From the IMG/VR virus record IMGVR_UViG_3300021511_000005, positions 1 to 64,000 of that record: DNA of 64,000 nucleotides. One strand, written 5' to 3'. This DNA is from a virus. Below are positions 10,298 through 40,788 of the stretch, piece by piece. The first letter of the stretch is position 1. Each line of letters begins with the position of its first letter. The translations under genes and the position numbers were made by a program. The notes under the pieces were generated by a model. The model saw nothing but the letters and a program-made list of their open reading frames with translations, was not told the origin of the DNA and ran no database searches.

Positions 10298-12475
10298 ATG
10301 GCCCGTGATCCCACCGTTAACGTGAAGGTCAAGGCGGATTCCCGTGAGCTGAAGAAGCTTCGAGCGGCGGGCAAGCAGGCCTTCGACAAGAAGACCCTGA
10401 CCGAGTTCACCCGCGCAGCTGGCGACATGGAGAAGCAGCTCGCGGATGTCCTGAAGCGGCAAATCTCGATCGTTGATCGCATGAAGGACCTGAAGAAGGG
10501 GTCCGATACGTGGAAGGAATGGCGGACCCAGCTGAAGGGGGTGAATCAGGAGGCCTCCGAGGTCGAGCGGACGCTGAGTCGGCTGCGTGGGGTTTTGAGG
10601 CAGCAGGATCAAGAGCAGGAGAAGCAGCAGCAGAAGAGGCGGTCCTTCGCCGCTGGGATGGGCCAGGGGCTGGGGGTTGCCCAGTACATCCCGGCCGACC
10701 GGGGGATGGCCGGCCGGATGGCGGGTGCAGCGTTGGGTGGGGGTATCCGGCGTAGTGCGGGAGCGGCGGCAGCTCCGTTCCTTACTCCGGGGATCGGCGG
10801 GATGGCGCAAGCCTTCGGGGCTATTCCGATTGTGGGAGGAATGGCCGCGGGGGCTCTGCAAACGGGAGCAGGGGCCTATCAACAGGCTTCAGCTTTCGCC
10901 CAGACGGCCAGGGGGGCTCTATTTGCCCAGGGACAAGGAATATCCAGCAGGGCAATGGCCCGGCGGAGCGCCTTGGCCGAAGTCCAAGTTCGCAGGGTTC
11001 GTGCGATTGGCAAACAAGACGCGAGGGAGGCCATTAGGCGAAGGGCCCGTCTTGTGAAGCAGGTAGCAGCCCAGAAGGCATCAGCTCGAACAACAACGAT
11101 CGGAGCCGTGATACCCGGGGAGCCGGCGCCTCAGATGGGTGCCGGGGCTGCTTCTGAAGCCATGACCGACCAGATGGATCGGGCCATGCAGGAAGGTGTC
11201 CGAACGCCGGCGGAGTTTACTCAGTGGCTTAAACGCCGCAAGGGACCGGGGACCACACCACCAACTGTTGCGGAGCTGGGGCGGACACCAGAGCAAGTCC
11301 GCCAGCAGACCAAGCAGCAGATCCAGAGCATTCGGGCTCGAGCGAGGCGGCAACCGACAGGACTTCCTGGAGCTGGTGCGGGCGTACAGTTTGGGCTGGG
11401 GCCACAGGAGATGATGCAGGGCTTTACCCAGATGATGCAGGCGCGGGGTGGAACCTACGATGATGTCCGCCAGGGGGAGTTCAAGGGGCAAATGGCGGCG
11501 CAAGTGGCCTATGGGGTCTCGGCCCAACAGGCCGGCCAAGTCGGTCGGATGGGCATCAGGGGCGGCGGTGGGACCGGCATGGGGCAGGGCCTCGCGGGCG
11601 TCCTCCAAGCCGCTGTAGCACAGGGGTTGAGGGGCTCGCAGGTCACTGAGTATCTGCAGACCTTGGTGGGGCTGGGGCAAGCTGCGGAGCGCTCAGGGGT
11701 CAAGATCAACGCCACCGAGTTCACCCGGTCCGCGGCGACTTTGGGAGCTGCGGGGCTTCAAGGGCTCCAAGCTCAGCGAGTTGCCGGCGGGATGCAACAG
11801 GCGGCTATGAACGTCAGCAAGCGGGGGGTCCAGTCTCCTATCGATGTCATGTTGGCCCGAGCCGCTGGTTTCGATCCGAGCCAGGGACCGGAGGGCTACG
11901 CTGCGGCGATGAACAAGATGGCCGGCGGAATGACCACCGACATGATGAACAAGCTCATGGCCAACATGACCAAGGGAGCCGGCGCCGGCGGCTTTGGGCC
12001 GGAGATGCAGGCCCTGATGCTGCGGAGGGCCATGGGCAAGATGGGGGTGGAGGTGGGCCCGGGCCAGGCCACGTCTATGTTGGAAGCTTATCGGCAAGGG
12101 AAGCCCTTTGGGGGTGACAAGTACGGCGAAGAAGAAGGAGCCGAGCAGCGGCTAATCAAAATTGCTAGGGGAAAGGTCCGAAGGGGCGCAGGCTTGGCAG
12201 TCGCTGCCGCGGGGCTCCAAGCGACCCAGATTGACGTTGGATCGCGGATGGCTTCGACTGTCATCTCTTTGGAGAAGGCGAGCTTGAATACGGCTCGAGC
12301 GATCAGTCGGCTGCCTATTAATAAGCTGGCTAGTGCGGTGGAACGGTCTACGAAGGCTCTGGATAACTTCTTTGCGGGTAAAGGTGGATCGGGGATCATG
12401 GGGCTCCTCGAAGACTTGATCCAAGCTGTCCGCGGCGGCGGGGGTACCAAAGGTCCTGCGGGGACGGGGGGATAA
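10298..12475 (+). CDS. Tape measure protein
   Basis: 725 residues, starting directly after the chaperone stop. The N-terminal 130 residues are coiled coil (DMEKQLADVLKRQ..., RQQDQEQEKQQQKRR). The middle is Gly/Ala/Met-rich and hydrophobic (GGIGGMAQAFGAIPIVGGMAAGALQTG), likely the membrane-inserting part. Long Gln/Ala helices follow. Composition, length and position between chaperones and baseplate hub are those of a tape measure. At about 0.15 nm per residue it implies a tail of roughly 110 nm, short for a myovirus (inference). No lysozyme-like domain was seen. Confidence 0.8.
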   Translation: MARDPTVNVKVKADSRELKKLRAAGKQAFDKKTLTEFTRAAGDMEKQLADVLKRQISIVDRMKDLKKGSDTWKEWRTQLKGVNQEASEVERTLSRLRGVLRQQDQEQEKQQQKRRSFAAGMGQGLGVAQYIPADRGMAGRMAGAALGGGIRRSAGAAAAPFLTPGIGGMAQAFGAIPIVGGMAAGALQTGAGAYQQASAFAQTARGALFAQGQGISSRAMARRSALAEVQVRRVRAIGKQDAREAIRRRARLVKQVAAQKASARTTTIGAVIPGEPAPQMGAGAASEAMTDQMDRAMQEGVRTPAEFTQWLKRRKGPGTTPPTVAELGRTPEQVRQQTKQQIQSIRARARRQPTGLPGAGAGVQFGLGPQEMMQGFTQMMQARGGTYDDVRQGEFKGQMAAQVAYGVSAQQAGQVGRMGIRGGGGTGMGQGLAGVLQAAVAQGLRGSQVTEYLQTLVGLGQAAERSGVKINATEFTRSAATLGAAGLQGLQAQRVAGGMQQAAMNVSKRGVQSPIDVMLARAAGFDPSQGPEGYAAAMNKMAGGMTTDMMNKLMANMTKGAGAGGFGPEMQALMLRRAMGKMGVEVGPGQATSMLEAYRQGKPFGGDKYGEEEGAEQRLIKIARGKVRRGAGLAVAAAGLQATQIDVGSRMASTVISLEKASLNTARAISRLPINKLASAVERSTKALDNFFAGKGGSGIMGLLEDLIQAVRGGGGTKGPAGTGG

Positions 12476-14133
12476 TGGCCAAGGTCGCTCCGCTGAAGGG
12501 CTATGTGGGTCTGGACAACCGTGGTGACGTGCCGCGGGTGTCCCAGAATCTGCGGGTCCGCTTCACCATCTATCCGCAGGCCATGGACTTCGAGGGCCTG
12601 GCGCTCAACGCTGCCGGCGGTAACGCCCTGGCCAAGCGGACGAGCGCCAAGAAGATGGTCCTGGACTGGACATCCCAGTCCCAGATGGGGCTCCAGTTGT
12701 TCGACTTTCACAAGCAAATGGGGCAGCCGAGCGGCGTCTGGTCAGCGATAGCCAAAGAGAAGCGGGGGATCGAGCTGGGGCTGGAGGATGGGCAGATCCT
12801 GGACGGCGACTGGTGCGACGTGTCGATCCTGCGGAACGGTGTGGAGATTCCGCTGTGCCGCGGGGTGATCGACAGCTGCCGGGAGCAGACCATGTCCTCC
12901 GGGGGGTCCACGGTCCGGACCTGGTCTCTATCGGGACGGGACCACGGATCCTTCTTCGAATATCCGATCACCTACTCCAACATCTGGGCGCAGACGCTGG
13001 GGGAGCTGACTCAGGGACTGTTCACAGCCCGCGTGAAGGGCAAGATCGGCGGCCGACCGGACGAGCTGTTCCGGATTCTGGTGGAGGCGACCTTCGCCTC
13101 CGGGAAGCTGTCGGGGCAGTGGGAGCTACCGCAGAGCCTGGCGGATACCACGGGCGGCCAGAAACGGTTACACGACCTTCTGGACATCGTCACCTACTCG
13201 GCGGACAAGACCCTTCGCCAGGGCCTCCGAGGCGCCTACTACAACGAGCCGGCGCTGTGGACGGCCGGCGGGCAGACCCTCCACCAGACTCTCGAGCAGT
13301 GGTGCAACCCGCTGATGAATGAGATGTACTACGACCTGATCCCACCCACGGGCTTTACGCCGCAGAACGGCCAGGGGCAGTGGATCATCCCTCTGCCCAC
13401 GGACACAGACGTCGAGGTCAAGGAGCGGGTGGACAACCTGGGCGGGGTCCTCAAGCCCGGCGGCGCCGAGCTGGACAGTCTCCTGGGCGAGTTCGGGGTC
13501 ATCTCCGCTATCATTCGGGAGCGACCCTTCCCGTCCACCGTGATGGGGCGGGACAGCCTGTGGTTTGATTTGCCGGAGTGGCGGCTTCCCATGTGGGCGC
13601 TGCAGTCCCTGGACCTAGGGCGCGCGGGCCACGAACGCTACAACCTGTTCGAGCTGCTGACCGATTTGTCGATGGGCTCCACCGCGGAACAGCCACCGCA
13701 GGCGCGGCCGACCTGGAACAAGATGGACATCCGCCAGCGCGGGCTCCGGACCTTCAGCCAAACGACGCGCTACCTGGCCCAGCTCAAGTCCGGCCTGGGG
13801 GACTGGTTCGCGGAGCGCTCTACCTGGCAGGCCCTTATCCGGGACTGGTACGCGCCGAGTCCCTATCTCCGCCAGGGACAAGTGGTCTCCAAACTGTTCT
13901 TGCCGGAGGTCCGCATTGGCCAGAAGCTAGTCCTGGACGAGGGCGGCGCCGAATCGGATAACGAGCGGCTCTATATTGAGGGGACCCATCTCCGCTACAC
14001 GGGCCCCGCGGGGCCCAGCAAGCCGCCCGGTGGGATGACCACCTTCACCCTGTCCCACGGCTTCCGCGGGACGGACAAGCAGCACCTGGACGCGGTCAAG
14101 TCGCTGGCCTCGTTCTTCGAGGAGGTCTTTTAA
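12475..14133 (+). CDS. Baseplate hub protein (gp27/gpD-like)
   Basis: 552 residues, start overlapping the tape measure stop (TAATG). The protein is beta-rich with aromatic and polar composition and phrases common in hub proteins: VSILRNGVEIPLCRGVIDSC, TWSLSGRDHGSFFE ('v-G-D----l----i'), and a C-terminal region of strands and loops. It precedes a gpV-like spike gene, the standard hub-spike pair. It would form the central trimer linking tube to spike. No enzymatic motif visible. Confidence 0.6.
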   Translation: MAKVAPLKGYVGLDNRGDVPRVSQNLRVRFTIYPQAMDFEGLALNAAGGNALAKRTSAKKMVLDWTSQSQMGLQLFDFHKQMGQPSGVWSAIAKEKRGIELGLEDGQILDGDWCDVSILRNGVEIPLCRGVIDSCREQTMSSGGSTVRTWSLSGRDHGSFFEYPITYSNIWAQTLGELTQGLFTARVKGKIGGRPDELFRILVEATFASGKLSGQWELPQSLADTTGGQKRLHDLLDIVTYSADKTLRQGLRGAYYNEPALWTAGGQTLHQTLEQWCNPLMNEMYYDLIPPTGFTPQNGQGQWIIPLPTDTDVEVKERVDNLGGVLKPGGAELDSLLGEFGVISAIIRERPFPSTVMGRDSLWFDLPEWRLPMWALQSLDLGRAGHERYNLFELLTDLSMGSTAEQPPQARPTWNKMDIRQRGLRTFSQTTRYLAQLKSGLGDWFAERSTWQALIRDWYAPSPYLRQGQVVSKLFLPEVRIGQKLVLDEGGAESDNERLYIEGTHLRYTGPAGPSKPPGGMTTFTLSHGFRGTDKQHLDAVKSLASFFEEVF

Positions 14134-36350: not shown

Positions 36351-37295
36351 ATGAGCAACGAACCCCCAATTATCGATGATCCGGAGGACGAGGCGGAGGT
36401 GGACCCCGAGGAGCTGAAGCAGCTCCTGGGACAAGCCCACGACCTGGGACTCCACATCAACAGCCGGGATCCCATCGAGATCGCGGCCCTGGTGGCGCTG
36501 GCCCAGCAGGAACGCGGATCGGAGCATCCGGTTCCCTGCTACGGCCTGAGCTACGACCCGACAGACAGGCGCTGCCGTGTTTGTCAGCTCCGCACCAAGT
36601 GCGCAGAGCTGGACCAGTCGCCGCGGGTGGAGGTATCCGACCTGACCCAACTTCAGGCGGTCCCGTGTGATGTGTGCGGGGGGTCGCTGGAGGTCGAGCT
36701 ACTGGACCGAGAACACCAGGAGGTTCGGGACTACGGATGCACCACCACCGGCTGTGCCAACACGTTGGGTGTCCAGTGTGGGTGGGAGACTCGCGCGGCT
36801 GACGTGGTCCGGGACATTGTGTTGCCCAAGGATGAAGTGGCCGAAGCGGAGCCGGAGGACGATTCCGTCCCCCCCTCGGAGGTCCCCCCTCCGGCTCCGC
36901 CGAAGCCCTCCAAGAAGAAGGCCAAGAAGAAGGCCAAGAAGAAGGCCAAGAAGAAGGCCAAGAAGAAGCCGAAATCCGACGCTACGCCCGCTCCCAAGAA
37001 GAAGGTCCAGGTGAAGGTGAAGCGGAAGCCGACCAAGCCAGCCAAGAAGAAGGCCAGCAAGAAGAAGACGGTCACGGTGAAGCCCAAGGGCAACGGCAAG
37101 CCCACGGGGAAACTGGTCTACATCTATGACGGCGAGCCCTACAACACGTTGACCCCGATCGCTGTGGCCATCAGCGGAAGCCGAAACTGGAGCGGCAAGC
37201 GGTTCTTCCGGGTCAAGGGCGAGCTGGAAGCGGGGACCACCCTGGAGCGCGAGTGGGAAGGCCAGACCTACTCCGTCCGCGTCGAGAAGGAGTAG
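36351..37295 (+). CDS. Zinc-motif protein with histone H1-like Lys tail and permuted DUF2924-like domain
   Basis: 314 residues. N-terminal acidic helix; residues ~62-85 carry CYGLSYDPTDRRCRVCQLRTKC; a second Cys group follows (CDVCGG...CTTTGC). Residues ~185-250 are a (K3-4)AK repeat like histone H1/HC1, with Pro linkers. The end (YDGEPYNTLTPIAVAISG-RNWSGKRFFRV, then AGTTLEREWEGQTYSVRVE) matches the two halves of DUF2924 in swapped order. Probably a DNA-binding/compacting protein; the zinc motif recurs in the -1 frame after ssb. Confidence 0.6.
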   Translation: MSNEPPIIDDPEDEAEVDPEELKQLLGQAHDLGLHINSRDPIEIAALVALAQQERGSEHPVPCYGLSYDPTDRRCRVCQLRTKCAELDQSPRVEVSDLTQLQAVPCDVCGGSLEVELLDREHQEVRDYGCTTTGCANTLGVQCGWETRAADVVRDIVLPKDEVAEAEPEDDSVPPSEVPPPAPPKPSKKKAKKKAKKKAKKKAKKKPKSDATPAPKKKVQVKVKRKPTKPAKKKASKKKTVTVKPKGNGKPTGKLVYIYDGEPYNTLTPIAVAISGSRNWSGKRFFRVKGELEAGTTLEREWEGQTYSVRVEKE

Positions 37296-37298
37296 ATC

Positions 37299-37883
37299 AT
37301 GTACGAGGGCAACAACGGCCGGGTGGCAATCGCGATCCCGAGCTTCAACGACATCGTGTCTCGGATTGCCAAGTTCGAGACCTTCCAGGTGGCGGATCGG
37401 CTCTACAGCGCCGACTTGCTGATCCCCCAGCTCACCATCAGCGGTAAGGACCTGATCGCGGAGGCCGCGAGCTGCGCCGCGCTGATCCTCTACTGGGGCG
37501 TGGAGGCCGCGCGTGCGCGGCGTCACGTCGAGAGTGTGGAGGGCTCTTATCGCGGGTGGCGGGATCGGAAGTGGCTGGATCTGAAGTCCACGCCGATTGA
37601 CGACGGCAAGGGCGGGGTGAAGATCCCGTCTGATGCCGTGTGTGATAAGCAGTATCGCACTCACCCAGAGTATGGCGTCTGGCAGCAGCGGAAGGCCGCT
37701 GCTCAGGAGGCCGCCGAGTGTGCCGAAGCGGTCCACGAGGCGTTCAAGGCCAAGAAGGATCTGGTCAAGGTGATGGAAAATCTGATGCGTGACGAGGCCG
37801 GTGGCCCCTATTGGGTCTCGGAGCAACCGTCCGTTGAAGTCCCACGACAGCCCCAACTAGCAGGAGAACAGGCCAATGAGTAA
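37299..37883 (+). CDS. UvsY-like recombination mediator candidate
   Basis: 194 residues, AAGGAG ribosome binding site. Mostly helical, with the pattern seen in UvsY-type proteins of long-tailed phages: a YRGWRDRKWLDL segment, HPEYGVWQQRKAAAQEAAECAEAVHEAFKAKKDLVKVMENLM with alternating Ala and charged residues, and a basic 'K-KKD' end. Located directly before SSB (overlap 8 nt) and close to RecA, where a mediator that loads recombinase onto SSB-coated DNA would be expected. Similarity is from memory of the family pattern only. Confidence 0.4.
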   Translation: MYEGNNGRVAIAIPSFNDIVSRIAKFETFQVADRLYSADLLIPQLTISGKDLIAEAASCAALILYWGVEAARARRHVESVEGSYRGWRDRKWLDLKSTPIDDGKGGVKIPSDAVCDKQYRTHPEYGVWQQRKAAAQEAAECAEAVHEAFKAKKDLVKVMENLMRDEAGGPYWVSEQPSVEVPRQPQLAGEQANE

Positions 37884-39441
37884 CGGAGATCCGTCCCAGA
37901 ACTATCCACAGCCGGGCCAGGGGCCGGGGGTCCACGGACATGCCCAAGCCGCACCGGACCCACAGCAAGGCTACCAGCAGCCGCAGGGTCAGCCGCAGGG
38001 TCAGCCGCAGGGTCAGCCGCAGGGTCAGCCGCAGTATCCCCAGGGGCCGCCACCGCAGGGCCAACAGGGGTATCCGCCCCAGCAGCCTCCGCCCCAGCAG
38101 CCCCAGCAGCCTCAGCCGTGGTTCGACCAGAATACGGGGCAGTGGGTTTATCCCCAGCAGCCTCCGCCCCGGCAGCCGCAGGGACCAGGGCCGTCGCAGC
38201 TCAGTCAGGCCGAGCTGGACGCCTTGAACGAGACTAAGCAGGAGCTGGACGATCGGACCAAGGACTTCGGGGACGTGGATTACTACAAGCCGAAGCAGCC
38301 CCAGTCCGTGGGTGACACGGTGGATAGCCTGGTCCGTCTGCTGCCGGCTTGGCCGGGCAAGGAGCAGACGGCTCAACCCGCCGGAATGTTCTGGAAGGAA
38401 TATGTTCACTTCATCTGGGTCCCGAGTCAGGAGGATCCGGGGAAGAATACCCGGATGGCCGTTCTCTGTGAGCGGGAGATGACGCCGGCGGGCTACGCGC
38501 CGGCGCCGTGTCCGGTCTGCGATCGGCGCGACTTGGCGGAGAAGGAAGGCGACCAGAAGATGGCTACGGCCCTGTCGGCGCGGCCGCGGTTCCTCTTTAA
38601 CGTGATCGACATGGAGGACAACAACCGTCACTGGAAGCAGGACAAGGCCACAGGGGCCTACACTTGCACCGCGGCGGTCGGCACCTTCGGGCCCGGGCTG
38701 ATGAAGAAGTTGATCAACATTTTCCATCAGCGTCAGAACATCGCGGACATGCGGTACGGTAAGAGCTTGGCCATCAGCACTAGCAAGGTGGGCAAGCAGC
38801 GACGGGATGTCCGTTACGACGCCTTGGACCACGGCGATCCGGGTCCCGTGCCTCAGGGGATGGAGAACATTATTCTGGTGGACCTGTCGCAGGTCACTCC
38901 CAAGAAGGACTACAACGAGGTGGCCGTGGCGATGAGGGTCACCTATCCGCCGCGGGACCAAGCTCCGCCGCCCCAGGGTTATCAGCAGCCTCAGGGTCCA
39001 CCGCCGCAGCAGGGCTATCAGCAGCCTCCGCCCCAACAGGGGCCACCGCCACAGCAAGGTTACCAGCAGCAGGGGCCGCCGCCGCAGCAGAGGCCACAGC
39101 CGCCCTACGGGAACCCCTATCCTCAGCAGGGCGGGCCGCCGCCGCAGCAAGGAGGCTATCAGCCTCCACAGCAGGGCCAGCAGCCTCAGCAGGCCGGCCC
39201 GCCGCCCCAGCAGCCTCAGCAGGCCGGCCCGCCGCCCCAGCAGGGATATCAGCCGCCTCAGCAGGCCGGCCCGCCACAGGGCCAGCCAGGGCCCCAGGGG
39301 GGCCCCCCGCCTCAGCAGGGCTATCAGCCCCCAGGAGGCTACGCCCAGCCGGCGGGGCCTCCTCAGCAGCAACAGCCACAGCAGGGGCAGCAGTCGGTCC
39401 CCTACGGTGAGCAGGGGCAGGATCCGGATGTCCCTTTCTAG
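37876..39441 (+). CDS. gp32-like single-stranded DNA-binding protein with Pro/Gln-rich arms
   Basis: 521 residues, AGGAGA ribosome binding site. Residues 1-110 are Pro/Gln-rich with a run of five PQGQ units. The core (~115-360) has the gp32 look: FWKEYVHFIWVPS, then C198 and CPVC (~213) as zinc ligands, ARPRFLFNVIDME, VKV-like strands and RRDVRYDALDHG. Residues ~365-510 are a second Pro/Gln-rich arm. The extreme C-terminus DPDVPF resembles the bacterial SSB tip (DDDIPF) that recruits partner proteins. The stop lies in a candidate -1 frameshift signal. Confidence 0.75.
   Translation: MSNGDPSQNYPQPGQGPGVHGHAQAAPDPQQGYQQPQGQPQGQPQGQPQGQPQYPQGPPPQGQQGYPPQQPPPQQPQQPQPWFDQNTGQWVYPQQPPPRQPQGPGPSQLSQAELDALNETKQELDDRTKDFGDVDYYKPKQPQSVGDTVDSLVRLLPAWPGKEQTAQPAGMFWKEYVHFIWVPSQEDPGKNTRMAVLCEREMTPAGYAPAPCPVCDRRDLAEKEGDQKMATALSARPRFLFNVIDMEDNNRHWKQDKATGAYTCTAAVGTFGPGLMKKLINIFHQRQNIADMRYGKSLAISTSKVGKQRRDVRYDALDHGDPGPVPQGMENIILVDLSQVTPKKDYNEVAVAMRVTYPPRDQAPPPQGYQQPQGPPPQQGYQQPPPQQGPPPQQGYQQQGPPPQQRPQPPYGNPYPQQGGPPPQQGGYQPPQQGQQPQQAGPPPQQPQQAGPPPQQGYQPPQQAGPPQGQPGPQGGPPPQQGYQPPGGYAQPAGPPQQQQPQQGQQSVPYGEQGQDPDVPF
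37979..38035 (+). repeat. 12-bp tandem repeat encoding PQGQ
   Basis: The unit CAGCCGCAGGGT is repeated in tandem at 37979-38026, followed by a partial unit. It encodes the PQGQ run in the N-terminal arm of the SSB. Perfect copies suggest recent slippage expansion. Confidence 0.8.
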
Positions 39442-39565
39442 GGGAGGGGTCTCCACGGCCACCCGTTGGCTCTGACGGGTGGCCGATTTGCCGCGGCCAC
39501 CATAACGACACGGATCGAACCTGCGGTCTGTGTGCCAGGTCGGAGGCGTGCAAGGTGGAGACCCC
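39413..39565 (+). promoter_or_regulatory. Candidate programmed -1 ribosomal frameshift element at the ssb stop
   Basis: In order: SD-like AGGGGCAGG (39413-39421), 10 nt, the X-XXY-YYZ heptamer C-CCT-TTC (39432-39438, in the ssb frame), TAG as next codon, and a 7-nt spacer. GGGGTCTCCAC (39446-39456) then pairs perfectly with GTGGAGACCCC (39555-39565). Stacked directly on that stem is a second one, GGCCACCCGT (39457-39466) with ACGGGTGGCC (39475-39484). This is the architecture of dnaX-type -1 frameshift signals. Function is inferred from sequence alone. Confidence 0.7.
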
Positions 39566-39656
39566 GCCGGATGCGGGTCCGCCGCCCGTCCCCACAGAAC
39601 ACCCAGCCCAGGACCCCGAGGCCCTGGAACGCATGATGCGAGGTACCGATGGCTAA
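39438..39656 (+). CDS. -1 frame extension of SSB carrying a zinc motif (no start codon of its own)
   Basis: After a -1 slip at 39432-39438 the ribosome would read 72 further codons from CTA 39438 to TAA 39654-39656, giving a ~593-residue SSB. The frame has no ATG, GTG or TTG before its conserved part. It encodes WPICRGHHNDTDRTCGLC-RSEAC, the same C-G-xx-DxTDRxC-xx-C-x5-C motif as the H1-like protein at 36351, then a Pro-rich linker and an acidic helix. It overlaps the recA start by 8 nt, so extension and recA translation may be coupled. Confidence 0.65.
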   Translation, partial: LGEGSPRPPVGSDGWPICRGHHNDTDRTCGLCARSEACKVETPPDAGPPPVPTEHPAQDPEALERMMRGTDG

Positions 39657-40788
39657 GTCAGCCACCGCCCAGAAGAAGGCCACTAAGAAGACCACCAAGA
39701 AGGCCACCCCCAAGCGCAAGGGTGCGGGCAAGGTCAGTCCCAAGAAGCGGGCCACCCAGCTCCAGGTGATGGTGGAGGCCCGCGAGTTCCTGCAGCAGAA
39801 GCACGGCAAGGGTGCGGTTCGGATGATGAACGAGGTGGACAGTACCATCCCGGGCTATATCTCCACGCAGTCCTTGGCGTTGGACAAGCTCGTAGGCAAT
39901 GACGGGGTCCCGCAGAGTCGGATGATCGAGATCTACGGGCCGGAGGGGATCGGGAAGTCCACCATCAGCGATCATCTGATTGCCCAGGTCCAGAAGCTCG
40001 ACGGTGTGGCCTATCTGTGGGATACGGAGAACGCGCGGGACCACCGTTACATGGACCAGGTGGGCATCGTCCGCGGCCGCGCTATCCGCGTTGAGGCGGA
40101 CACGGTGGAGGCGGGTTACGCTATCGCTCAGGACACCATCGACTGGCATCTGGCCCATTACCCAGACCGGCTGGGGATCTGGGTCTGGGACACAGTGGCG
40201 GGAACGCCCACTGAAGCGGAGTTGGACCCCAGCAAGTCCAATGAACGCTTCGGGCCGGCGAAGATGATCCGCGGCATGTGCCGTGTGTTGACTCAGAGCC
40301 TCAAGAAGTCCCGCTGGATCTTCGTGGTGGTCAACCAGACCTATATCACGCAGAAGGGGCACTTCCCGGTAGTCAAGACCTACGGCGGTGAGGGGATCCC
40401 CTACTACAGCTCTGTTCGGCTTGAGTGCGGCTACCGGAGTCCGCAGTGGCGGACGACAACGTCCAAGGAGGCCGGCGAGGATCCGATTGGGCAGACCATC
40501 ATAGTCAAGTCGTCTAAGAACAAGACCTTTCCACCGTTGCGGTCAGAGAAGATCTACATCCGCTACGGCGAGGGCATCGATAACGTGTGGACGTTGTATG
40601 ACACGCTGTGTGGTGCCGGGATGATCACTCAGGCTGGGGGCTGGTACGAGCTGGACTGGCCGGAGGTGGCGGGCAAATACCCCAAGTGGCAGAGCGGCTA
40701 CGACGGGTTGAAGCAGCTCTGCTCGGAGAACGTGGATCTGTGGAGAGACGTGATTCTGGGCTATCAGGCGCTGGAGAAGAGGCGATGA
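39649..40788 (+). CDS. recA: RecA/UvsX-family recombinase
   Basis: 379 residues. A Lys/Thr/Ala-rich N-terminal arm (~1-35, H1-like) precedes the core: LALDKLVGNDGVPQSRMIEIYGPEGIGKST with Walker A GPEGIGKST (~97-105), LWDTENARD (~125), Walker B LGIWVWDTVAGTP, and WIFVVVNQTY. The C-terminal part carries PYYSSVRLECGY. Catalyses strand exchange on SSB-coated DNA. Weak GAGG ribosome binding site; the start lies inside the end of the -1 ssb frame, hinting at translational coupling. The basic arm is an unusual addition. Confidence 0.85.
   Translation: MAKSATAQKKATKKTTKKATPKRKGAGKVSPKKRATQLQVMVEAREFLQQKHGKGAVRMMNEVDSTIPGYISTQSLALDKLVGNDGVPQSRMIEIYGPEGIGKSTISDHLIAQVQKLDGVAYLWDTENARDHRYMDQVGIVRGRAIRVEADTVEAGYAIAQDTIDWHLAHYPDRLGIWVWDTVAGTPTEAELDPSKSNERFGPAKMIRGMCRVLTQSLKKSRWIFVVVNQTYITQKGHFPVVKTYGGEGIPYYSSVRLECGYRSPQWRTTTSKEAGEDPIGQTIIVKSSKNKTFPPLRSEKIYIRYGEGIDNVWTLYDTLCGAGMITQAGGWYELDWPEVAGKYPKWQSGYDGLKQLCSENVDLWRDVILGYQALEKRR

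Follow-up and report, generated by a model that had tools for sequence, protein, structure and literature searches.

A predicted programmed −1 ribosomal frameshift at the end of a phage gene for a gp32-type SSB

Programmed −1 frameshifting near the end of a gene, with the addition of a domain to its product, has been described for T7/T3 gene 10, phage Ig-domain extensions, tail chaperones, and dnaX (PMC5009743). The locus described here is like dnaX (tau/gamma) in being a replication gene with a predicted −1 shift, at a heptamer accompanied by candidate Shine-Dalgarno (SD)-like and stem stimulators; as in dnaX genes of the reversed type, the zero-frame stop lies right after the site, and the shift would yield the longer product (PMC5009743). 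It differs from dnaX in the gene itself, which encodes SSB, in the site (C_CCU_UUC rather than A_AAA_AAG), and in the domain gained, a four-cysteine module (PMC5009743). With T7/T3 gene 10 and the Ig-domain extensions it shares a phage gene, a late −1 shift, and a C-terminally extended form (PMC5009743); however, those are structural proteins, whereas here a replication/recombination protein would be extended and would lose its free C-terminal tip. The tail chaperone frameshift of lambda gpG/gpGT differs in gene, site, and purpose (PMC5009743).

Although −1 frameshifting is well known, we found no precedent in the literature searched for an SSB gene as its site. Full-text searches returned no SSB frameshift, which is not proof given that subscription journals were mostly uncovered. 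SSB is not mentioned in the main text of the frameshift review cited above (PMC5009743), and the main text of the GeneTack survey of prokaryotic frame transitions (PMC3711429) contains no SSB case. Nor did we find CCCUUUC described in that literature as a shift site in bacteria, which counts against a frameshift at this locus. Weighing this with the comparative evidence presented below, we put the probability at roughly 0.87 that a programmed −1 ribosomal frameshift at the end of the SSB gene makes two SSBs.

The SSB gene and the overlapping −1 frame

We analyzed a 64,000-nucleotide stretch of virus DNA (here, the window), which comprises positions 1-64000 of the 109,478-base IMG/VR virus record IMGVR_UViG_3300021511_000005. 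The features of the SSB gene and its surroundings are as follows.

37876-39441, + strand: SSB gene, zero frame, 521 aa, with a gp32-type core, a Pro/Gln-rich linker, and the tip DPDVPF
about 38254-38955, + strand: gp32-type core of SSB (phrog_1192, SPO1 gp32.4, AF2/Foldseek)
39421-39438, + strand: codons of the SSB-Ct-like tip DPDVPF (in relatives, SGIPF, DDVPF, and NPPF)
39432-39438, + strand: candidate slippery heptamer C_CCT_TTC, read CCT TTC in the zero frame and CCC TTT in the −1 frame, kept in relatives
39439-39441, + strand: zero-frame stop TAG, directly after the heptamer (TAG in G004 and L083, TGA in L088)
39432-39656, + strand: predicted −1 extension PFLGEGS...RMMRGTDG and stop TAA, with a four-cysteine module and a C-terminal helix; homologous −1 ORFs in relatives
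39489-39551, + strand: cysteine module C-x10-C-x2-C-x5-C, with Cys codons starting at 39489, 39522, 39531, and 39549
39649-40788, + strand: recA/uvsX gene (RecA Pfam, E 2e-34), whose ATG overlaps the stop of the −1 ORF by 8 nt

The product of 37876-39441 is a gp32-type SSB by both core sequence and fold similarity. Its core matched phrog_1192 (single-strand DNA binding protein) in PHROG with an E-value of 6e-8 and SPO1 gp32.4 in a tblastn search, and an AF2 model of the core (pLDDT 85) matched RB69/T4 gp32 in a Foldseek search of the PDB (E 1.7e-7; TM 0.54 to RB69 gp32). The core is like gp32 in fold and like SPO1 gp32.4 in sequence; unlike these proteins, the window SSB has a long Pro/Gln linker, a PF tip, and a cysteine extension in the −1 frame. 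The tip DPDVPF, encoded by GAT CCG GAT GTC CCT TTC TAG, resembles the acidic tip of bacterial SSB, which in E. coli is ...DDDIPF (PMC7913777). Opposite the gene, a 565-aa open frame runs along the minus strand (37765-39462), most likely as a by-product of the repetitive Pro/Gln-coding composition.

The sequence-only reading of this stretch had placed an in-frame heptamer C-CCT-TTC at 39432-39438, just before TAG, and a base-by-base check agreed; its positions for the SD-like element, stems, spacer, and −1 frame were likewise correct. From the heptamer to the TAA at 39654-39656, the −1 ORF has 74 residues, counting PF; its translation is PFLGEGSPRPPVGSDGWPICRGHHNDTDRTCGLCARSEACKVETPPDAGPPPVPTEHPAQDPEALERMMRGTDG, and it ends 8 nt inside recA. 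As that reading had stated, the frame is open for 72 codons with no ATG, GTG, or TTG before its conserved part, and its cysteine motif recurs in the protein encoded at 36351-37295. The only near-start codon before the first cysteine is ATT. We found no tRNA genes that could tune a slip within the 64-kb window. Elsewhere in the window (12462-12476), a heptamer GGGGGGA stands right before the TAA of ORF 10298-12475; its G-run is probably the SD of the next gene, in an ordinary TAATG overlap.

Relatives with the same frame break

A scan with the SSB protein alone found no relatives, and scans for recA and the cysteine pattern were needed instead. Relatives were found by searching DNA with a degenerate pattern of the cysteine module, by searching for the heptamer together with the module, and by RecA-alignment scans; a RecA-alignment scan of bacterial and archaeal genomes found none. 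Three IMG/VR genomes can be compared with the window at the end of the SSB gene: G004 (IMGVR_UViG_3300037264_004124), L083 (IMGVR_UViG_3300028840_002420; 113 kb, with gene order as in the window), and L088 (IMGVR_UViG_3300005828_000326). Two others, G002 and G003, were excluded, their sequences stopping within the SSB linker.

The window, G004, and L083 share an identical in-frame CCCTTTC-TAG, with SSB core identities to the window of 39% for L083 and 33% for G004. The SSB gene of G004 ends GGC ATC CCT TTC TAG, with the −1 frame PFLAAGADLAPPMRPDGVPRCYGHYWPDDRTCGTCHVQAHC...DPEGLERLLRGK followed by recA; that of L083 ends GAT GTC CCT TTC TAG, with the −1 frame PFLGDGSSTQAPKPPVDGRGIPRCWGRWWADDRTCRACWVAEAC...DPEELERQLRG, again followed by recA. 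In L088, the end is AAT CCC CCT TTT TGA, which gives the near-identical arrangement C_CCT_TTT-TGA, then a −1 frame with a more distantly related module, then recA. The −1 ORFs are homologous to that of the window at 49% (E 1e-16) in L083, 47% (E 5e-19) in G004, and 33% (E 3e-4) in L088. The check on relatives proposed with the sequence-only reading therefore comes out in its favor: the heptamer, the adjoining stop, and the cysteine ORF in the −1 frame are kept in two more genomes and nearly so in a fourth, which supports its proposal of two SSBs made by frameshifting. The zero-frame ends are also alike, with acidic residues followed by Pro-Phe in DPDVPF (window), GADSGIPF (G004), and GGDDVPF (L083); the NPPF of L088 lacks the acidic residues.

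The differences between genomes concentrate at third positions of the −1 frame (29/22/40, 27/24/46, and 27/29/47 by codon position), which shows the −1 protein to be under selection. The frame opens only 3 nt (L083), 6 nt (G004), and 21 nt (window) upstream of the heptamer; ribosomes in the zero frame could therefore cross into it only at the heptamer or its edge. For the residues encoded and the codon use of each gene, the C before CCT has a p of about 0.04-0.07 per genome; the joint p for C-CCT in the four genomes is 6e-6 if they are independent, which is a guide only, given their shared ancestry. The same caution applies to the whole comparison, in which three genomes carry the exact heptamer and one a near variant, with shared descent lowering their independence. 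A scan of IMG/VR for CCCTTTCTAG with the cysteine pattern after it found two contigs only, both with this SSB arrangement. When bacterial and archaeal genomes (257 Gb) were scanned for heptamer and cysteines, there was a single match, to a Flavobacteriales MAG, which we rejected as chance since it has no module in any frame.

Relatives with in-frame fusions of SSB and module exist, as would be expected if the break in the window were a decayed, pseudogenized fusion or a misassembled one. This explanation is highly improbable, as G004 and L083 already largely refute it: in three independent contigs the break falls at one and the same codon and is followed by an identical stop, the −1 frame is under selection, and the PF tip that closes the zero frame is conserved. 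Assembly error is excluded because independent contigs carry the same break, and their agreement likewise answers the suggestion that a sequencing indel had separated the frames.

Alternatively, the cysteine ORF could be a small gene in its own right, with a product not fused to SSB, on which ribosomes that terminate at the SSB stop reinitiate. Start codons before the cysteines occur in the −1 frame of G004 (an ATG 36 nt past the heptamer start) and of L088 (a TTG that overlaps its TGA), and initiation of its own is possible in these two genomes; L013, which carries the module in the −1 frame, has a GTG that overlaps the TGA as well as an ATG before the first cysteine. Neither the window nor L083 has any ATG, GTG, or TTG in the −1 frame before the first cysteine, and the first GTG in that frame comes after the third or fourth cysteine in both. 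In addition, the −1 proteins of L083 and G004 resemble that of the window from the junction onward (PFLGEGS/PFLGDGS), so that conservation begins at PFLG(E/D)GS; the heptamer codons are constrained; and the module is joined in frame to SSB in several relatives. We consider a separate gene unlikely, if somewhat less so than decay of a fusion. The conserved heptamer, the homologous −1 ORFs, the narrow entry, and the lack of a start in the −1 frame of the window and L083 together argue for FRAMESHIFTING.

In L013 (2440-2560), no heptamer accompanies the −1 module, and the SSB ends PLPR with no PF tip. Given the GTG that overlaps the SSB TGA, reinitiation may take the place of frameshifting in this genome. 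No relative was seen that kept heptamer and stems without the −1 ORF, a combination named beforehand as telling against frameshifting; L013 is the converse, a −1 module without the heptamer but with a possible start.

Two other routes into the module were rejected. Readthrough of the zero-frame stop does not account for it, as what follows that stop in the zero frame of L083 bears no relation to the module. Transcriptional slippage normally needs long A/T runs, and the runs here are only three bases long.

Stimulators of the slip and the overlap with recA

The candidate stimulators in the window are as follows.

39413-39421, + strand: SD-like element AGGGGCAGG (weak in the window), with about 10 nt between it and the heptamer downstream
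39446-39456, + strand: 5' arm of the outer stem of a three-way junction, 11 bp, GGGGTCTCCAC
39457-39466, + strand: 5' arm of the stacked hairpin, 10 bp, GGCCACCCGT
39475-39484, + strand: 3' arm of the stacked hairpin, 10 bp, ACGGGTGGCC, which pairs with 39457-39466
39555-39565, + strand: 3' arm of the outer stem, 11 bp, GTGGAGACCCC, which pairs perfectly with 39446-39456

A spacer of 7 nt separates the heptamer from the structure. For the 142 nt downstream, the folding energy is −82.7 kcal/mol, with a z-score of −4.9 against dinucleotide shuffles and about −4 against shuffles that preserve the −1 protein, and local fold strength at the site ranks 2/852 among stretches of the window. In the computed fold, the 10-bp hairpin helix is made longer and the whole takes the shape of a three-way junction, the same shape as the stimulator of the IS911 −1 frameshift (PMC5009743). 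IS911 differs in that the gene is a transposase gene and in that the structure of the window is not conserved among relatives: downstream structure in L083 and G004 was not significant against shuffles, and that of L088 was (z about −2.9 to −4.0 at 135 nt). The sequence-only reading was thus right that both stems are perfect, and the fold is exceptional within the window, but conserved stems had to be dropped as the chief evidence.

The SD-like element fared similarly. It is present at 39413-39421, as had been claimed, but ranks an unremarkable 88/489 when the strength of the anti-SD duplex is compared across positions in its own gene, and we dropped it as strong evidence in the window. By the same ranking within their own genes, the internal SD-like elements of L083 (rank 0/471) and G004 (rank 9/424) are strong, and L088 has none upstream of its slip site. 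No stimulator is therefore common to all four genomes: the window and L088 have the structure, and L083 and G004 have the SD. This looks like two alternative routes to stimulating one slip, and is to be read as a pattern and not as a result. At 3800-3835 in L083, just upstream of the heptamer, GGGAGGTGATGATG comes close to a perfect ribosome-binding site, and an ATG after it in the third frame would open a 17-aa peptide; the site may be a stimulator of the shift or the start of a small peptide.

The stop of the −1 frame overlaps the recA ATG or abuts it in each of the four genomes, and recA always has an SD-like site of its own. Because of this overlap, it is plausible that shifted ribosomes, ending on the recA start, could feed RecA translation. 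The same stop/start overlap, together with the exceptional structure in the window, would also suit a role in operon control of SSB and RecA only, for example by autogenous SSB binding, with the frameshift incidental; T4 gp32 binds its own mRNA and regulates its translation (PMC3014915). Against such a role, structure is absent as a conserved feature in L083 and G004, which keep the heptamer and the −1 ORF, and the conserved −1 protein would be left unexplained; we give this explanation very little weight. Tentatively, the slippery site of the frameshift could act as a joint switch that links the ratio of SSB isoforms to the dose of RecA, and SSB-RNA binding could close a feedback loop. If so, the ratio of partner-recruiting SSB with a free PF tip to tip-capped SSB with a metal-binding module would be tied to the delivery of ribosomes to recA.

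The cysteine module and the two predicted SSB forms

We collected 23 phage modules, in which four cysteines and one glycine are invariant; C-x2-C lies in the middle, and in most of them C-x2-C-x5-C is preceded by a longer gap. In five phages whose SSB gene lies beside recA (L007, L017, L067, L079, and L104), the module is in frame toward the SSB C-terminus, and these fusion proteins have no PF tip. Given these in-frame fusions in several phages, the module is a part of SSB. Two further SSBs, those of L089 and L090, lack the module; the former ends DEDDLQF. We infer that most of these phages have either the module or the tip, and that frameshifting would give both from one gene.

Pfam has no model for the module, two PHROGs of unknown function match some of its members, and a Foldseek search with its AF2 model (of low confidence, pTM 0.38) found no match. 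The best profile match in the PDB is weak (E 0.16), to the C-clamp of SLC2A4RG. The C-clamp is a zinc-dependent DNA-binding domain (TCF, SLC2A4RG) with the long gap first (PMC3896468). The module likewise has four cysteines with a long gap first, then a close pair, and the aligned residues of the SLC2A4RG C-clamp show C-x2-C-x5-C, as in the module; the first gap is 12 residues in the C-clamp (C-x12-C-x2-C-x5-C) and 10 in the window (x10/x2/x5). Unlike the C-clamp, which needs basic residues to bind DNA, the SSB modules have none between the third and fourth cysteines, and CARSEAC in the window is not basic; kinship to the C-clamp is a lead only. To judge from its cysteines, the module probably binds zinc. 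WhiB-type iron-sulfur proteins have a similar cysteine spacing, so that the metal may be other than zinc.

The module also occurs outside SSB. In the window, the gene at 36351-37295 (+ strand), upstream of SSB, encodes the module (36513-36635) and a DUF2924-like C-terminal part (Pfam, E 3e-9), with homologues in L083, L044, L032, and L048. Small or unrelated phage proteins carry it, singly or fused, in L010, L012, L015, L026, L033, L041, L047, L055, and L059.

Genomic sequence thus provides a slip site and a selected −1 protein, with no canonical start in at least the window and L083, and suggests that the slip itself occurs on ribosomes. Under the proposed frameshift, most ribosomes would read CCT-TTC-TAG and release the gp32-type SSB with a free acidic-hydrophobic ...PF tip. 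A fraction would slip back one base on C_CCU_UUC, with Pro-tRNA moving to CCC and Phe-tRNA to UUU when UAG is next; alternatively, Phe-tRNA alone could slip with UAG in the A site, and the peptide would be the same, ...DVPF-LGEGS. The stimulator would differ by phage, being the three-way-junction structure in the window and a strong internal SD in L083 and G004. Slipped ribosomes would continue for 72 codons, adding the four-cysteine module and the terminal helix, and the junction peptide of the long form would read ...DVPFLGEGSPR (...DPDVPFLGEGSPR).

In the long form, the PF tip would be internal and capped. In bacteria, genome-maintenance proteins dock mainly on the SSB tip. Because bacterial SSB partners use the free C-terminal Phe, tip-dependent docking should be lost in the long SSB, and the two isoforms would differ in partner recruitment.

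Among the conserved frameshifts of tailed phages for which we found descriptions, most affect genes for structural proteins or tail assembly. A frameshift conserved in SSB genes would take recoding into the core of phage replication and recombination, and suggests that a single gene can supply both SSBs whose interaction tip is free and SSBs that lack a free one. The cysteine module, which was collected from 23 phage stretches and has no Pfam model, merits a family of its own. An encoded, tip-capped isoform would offer a direct way to probe the role of tip-less SSB subunits.
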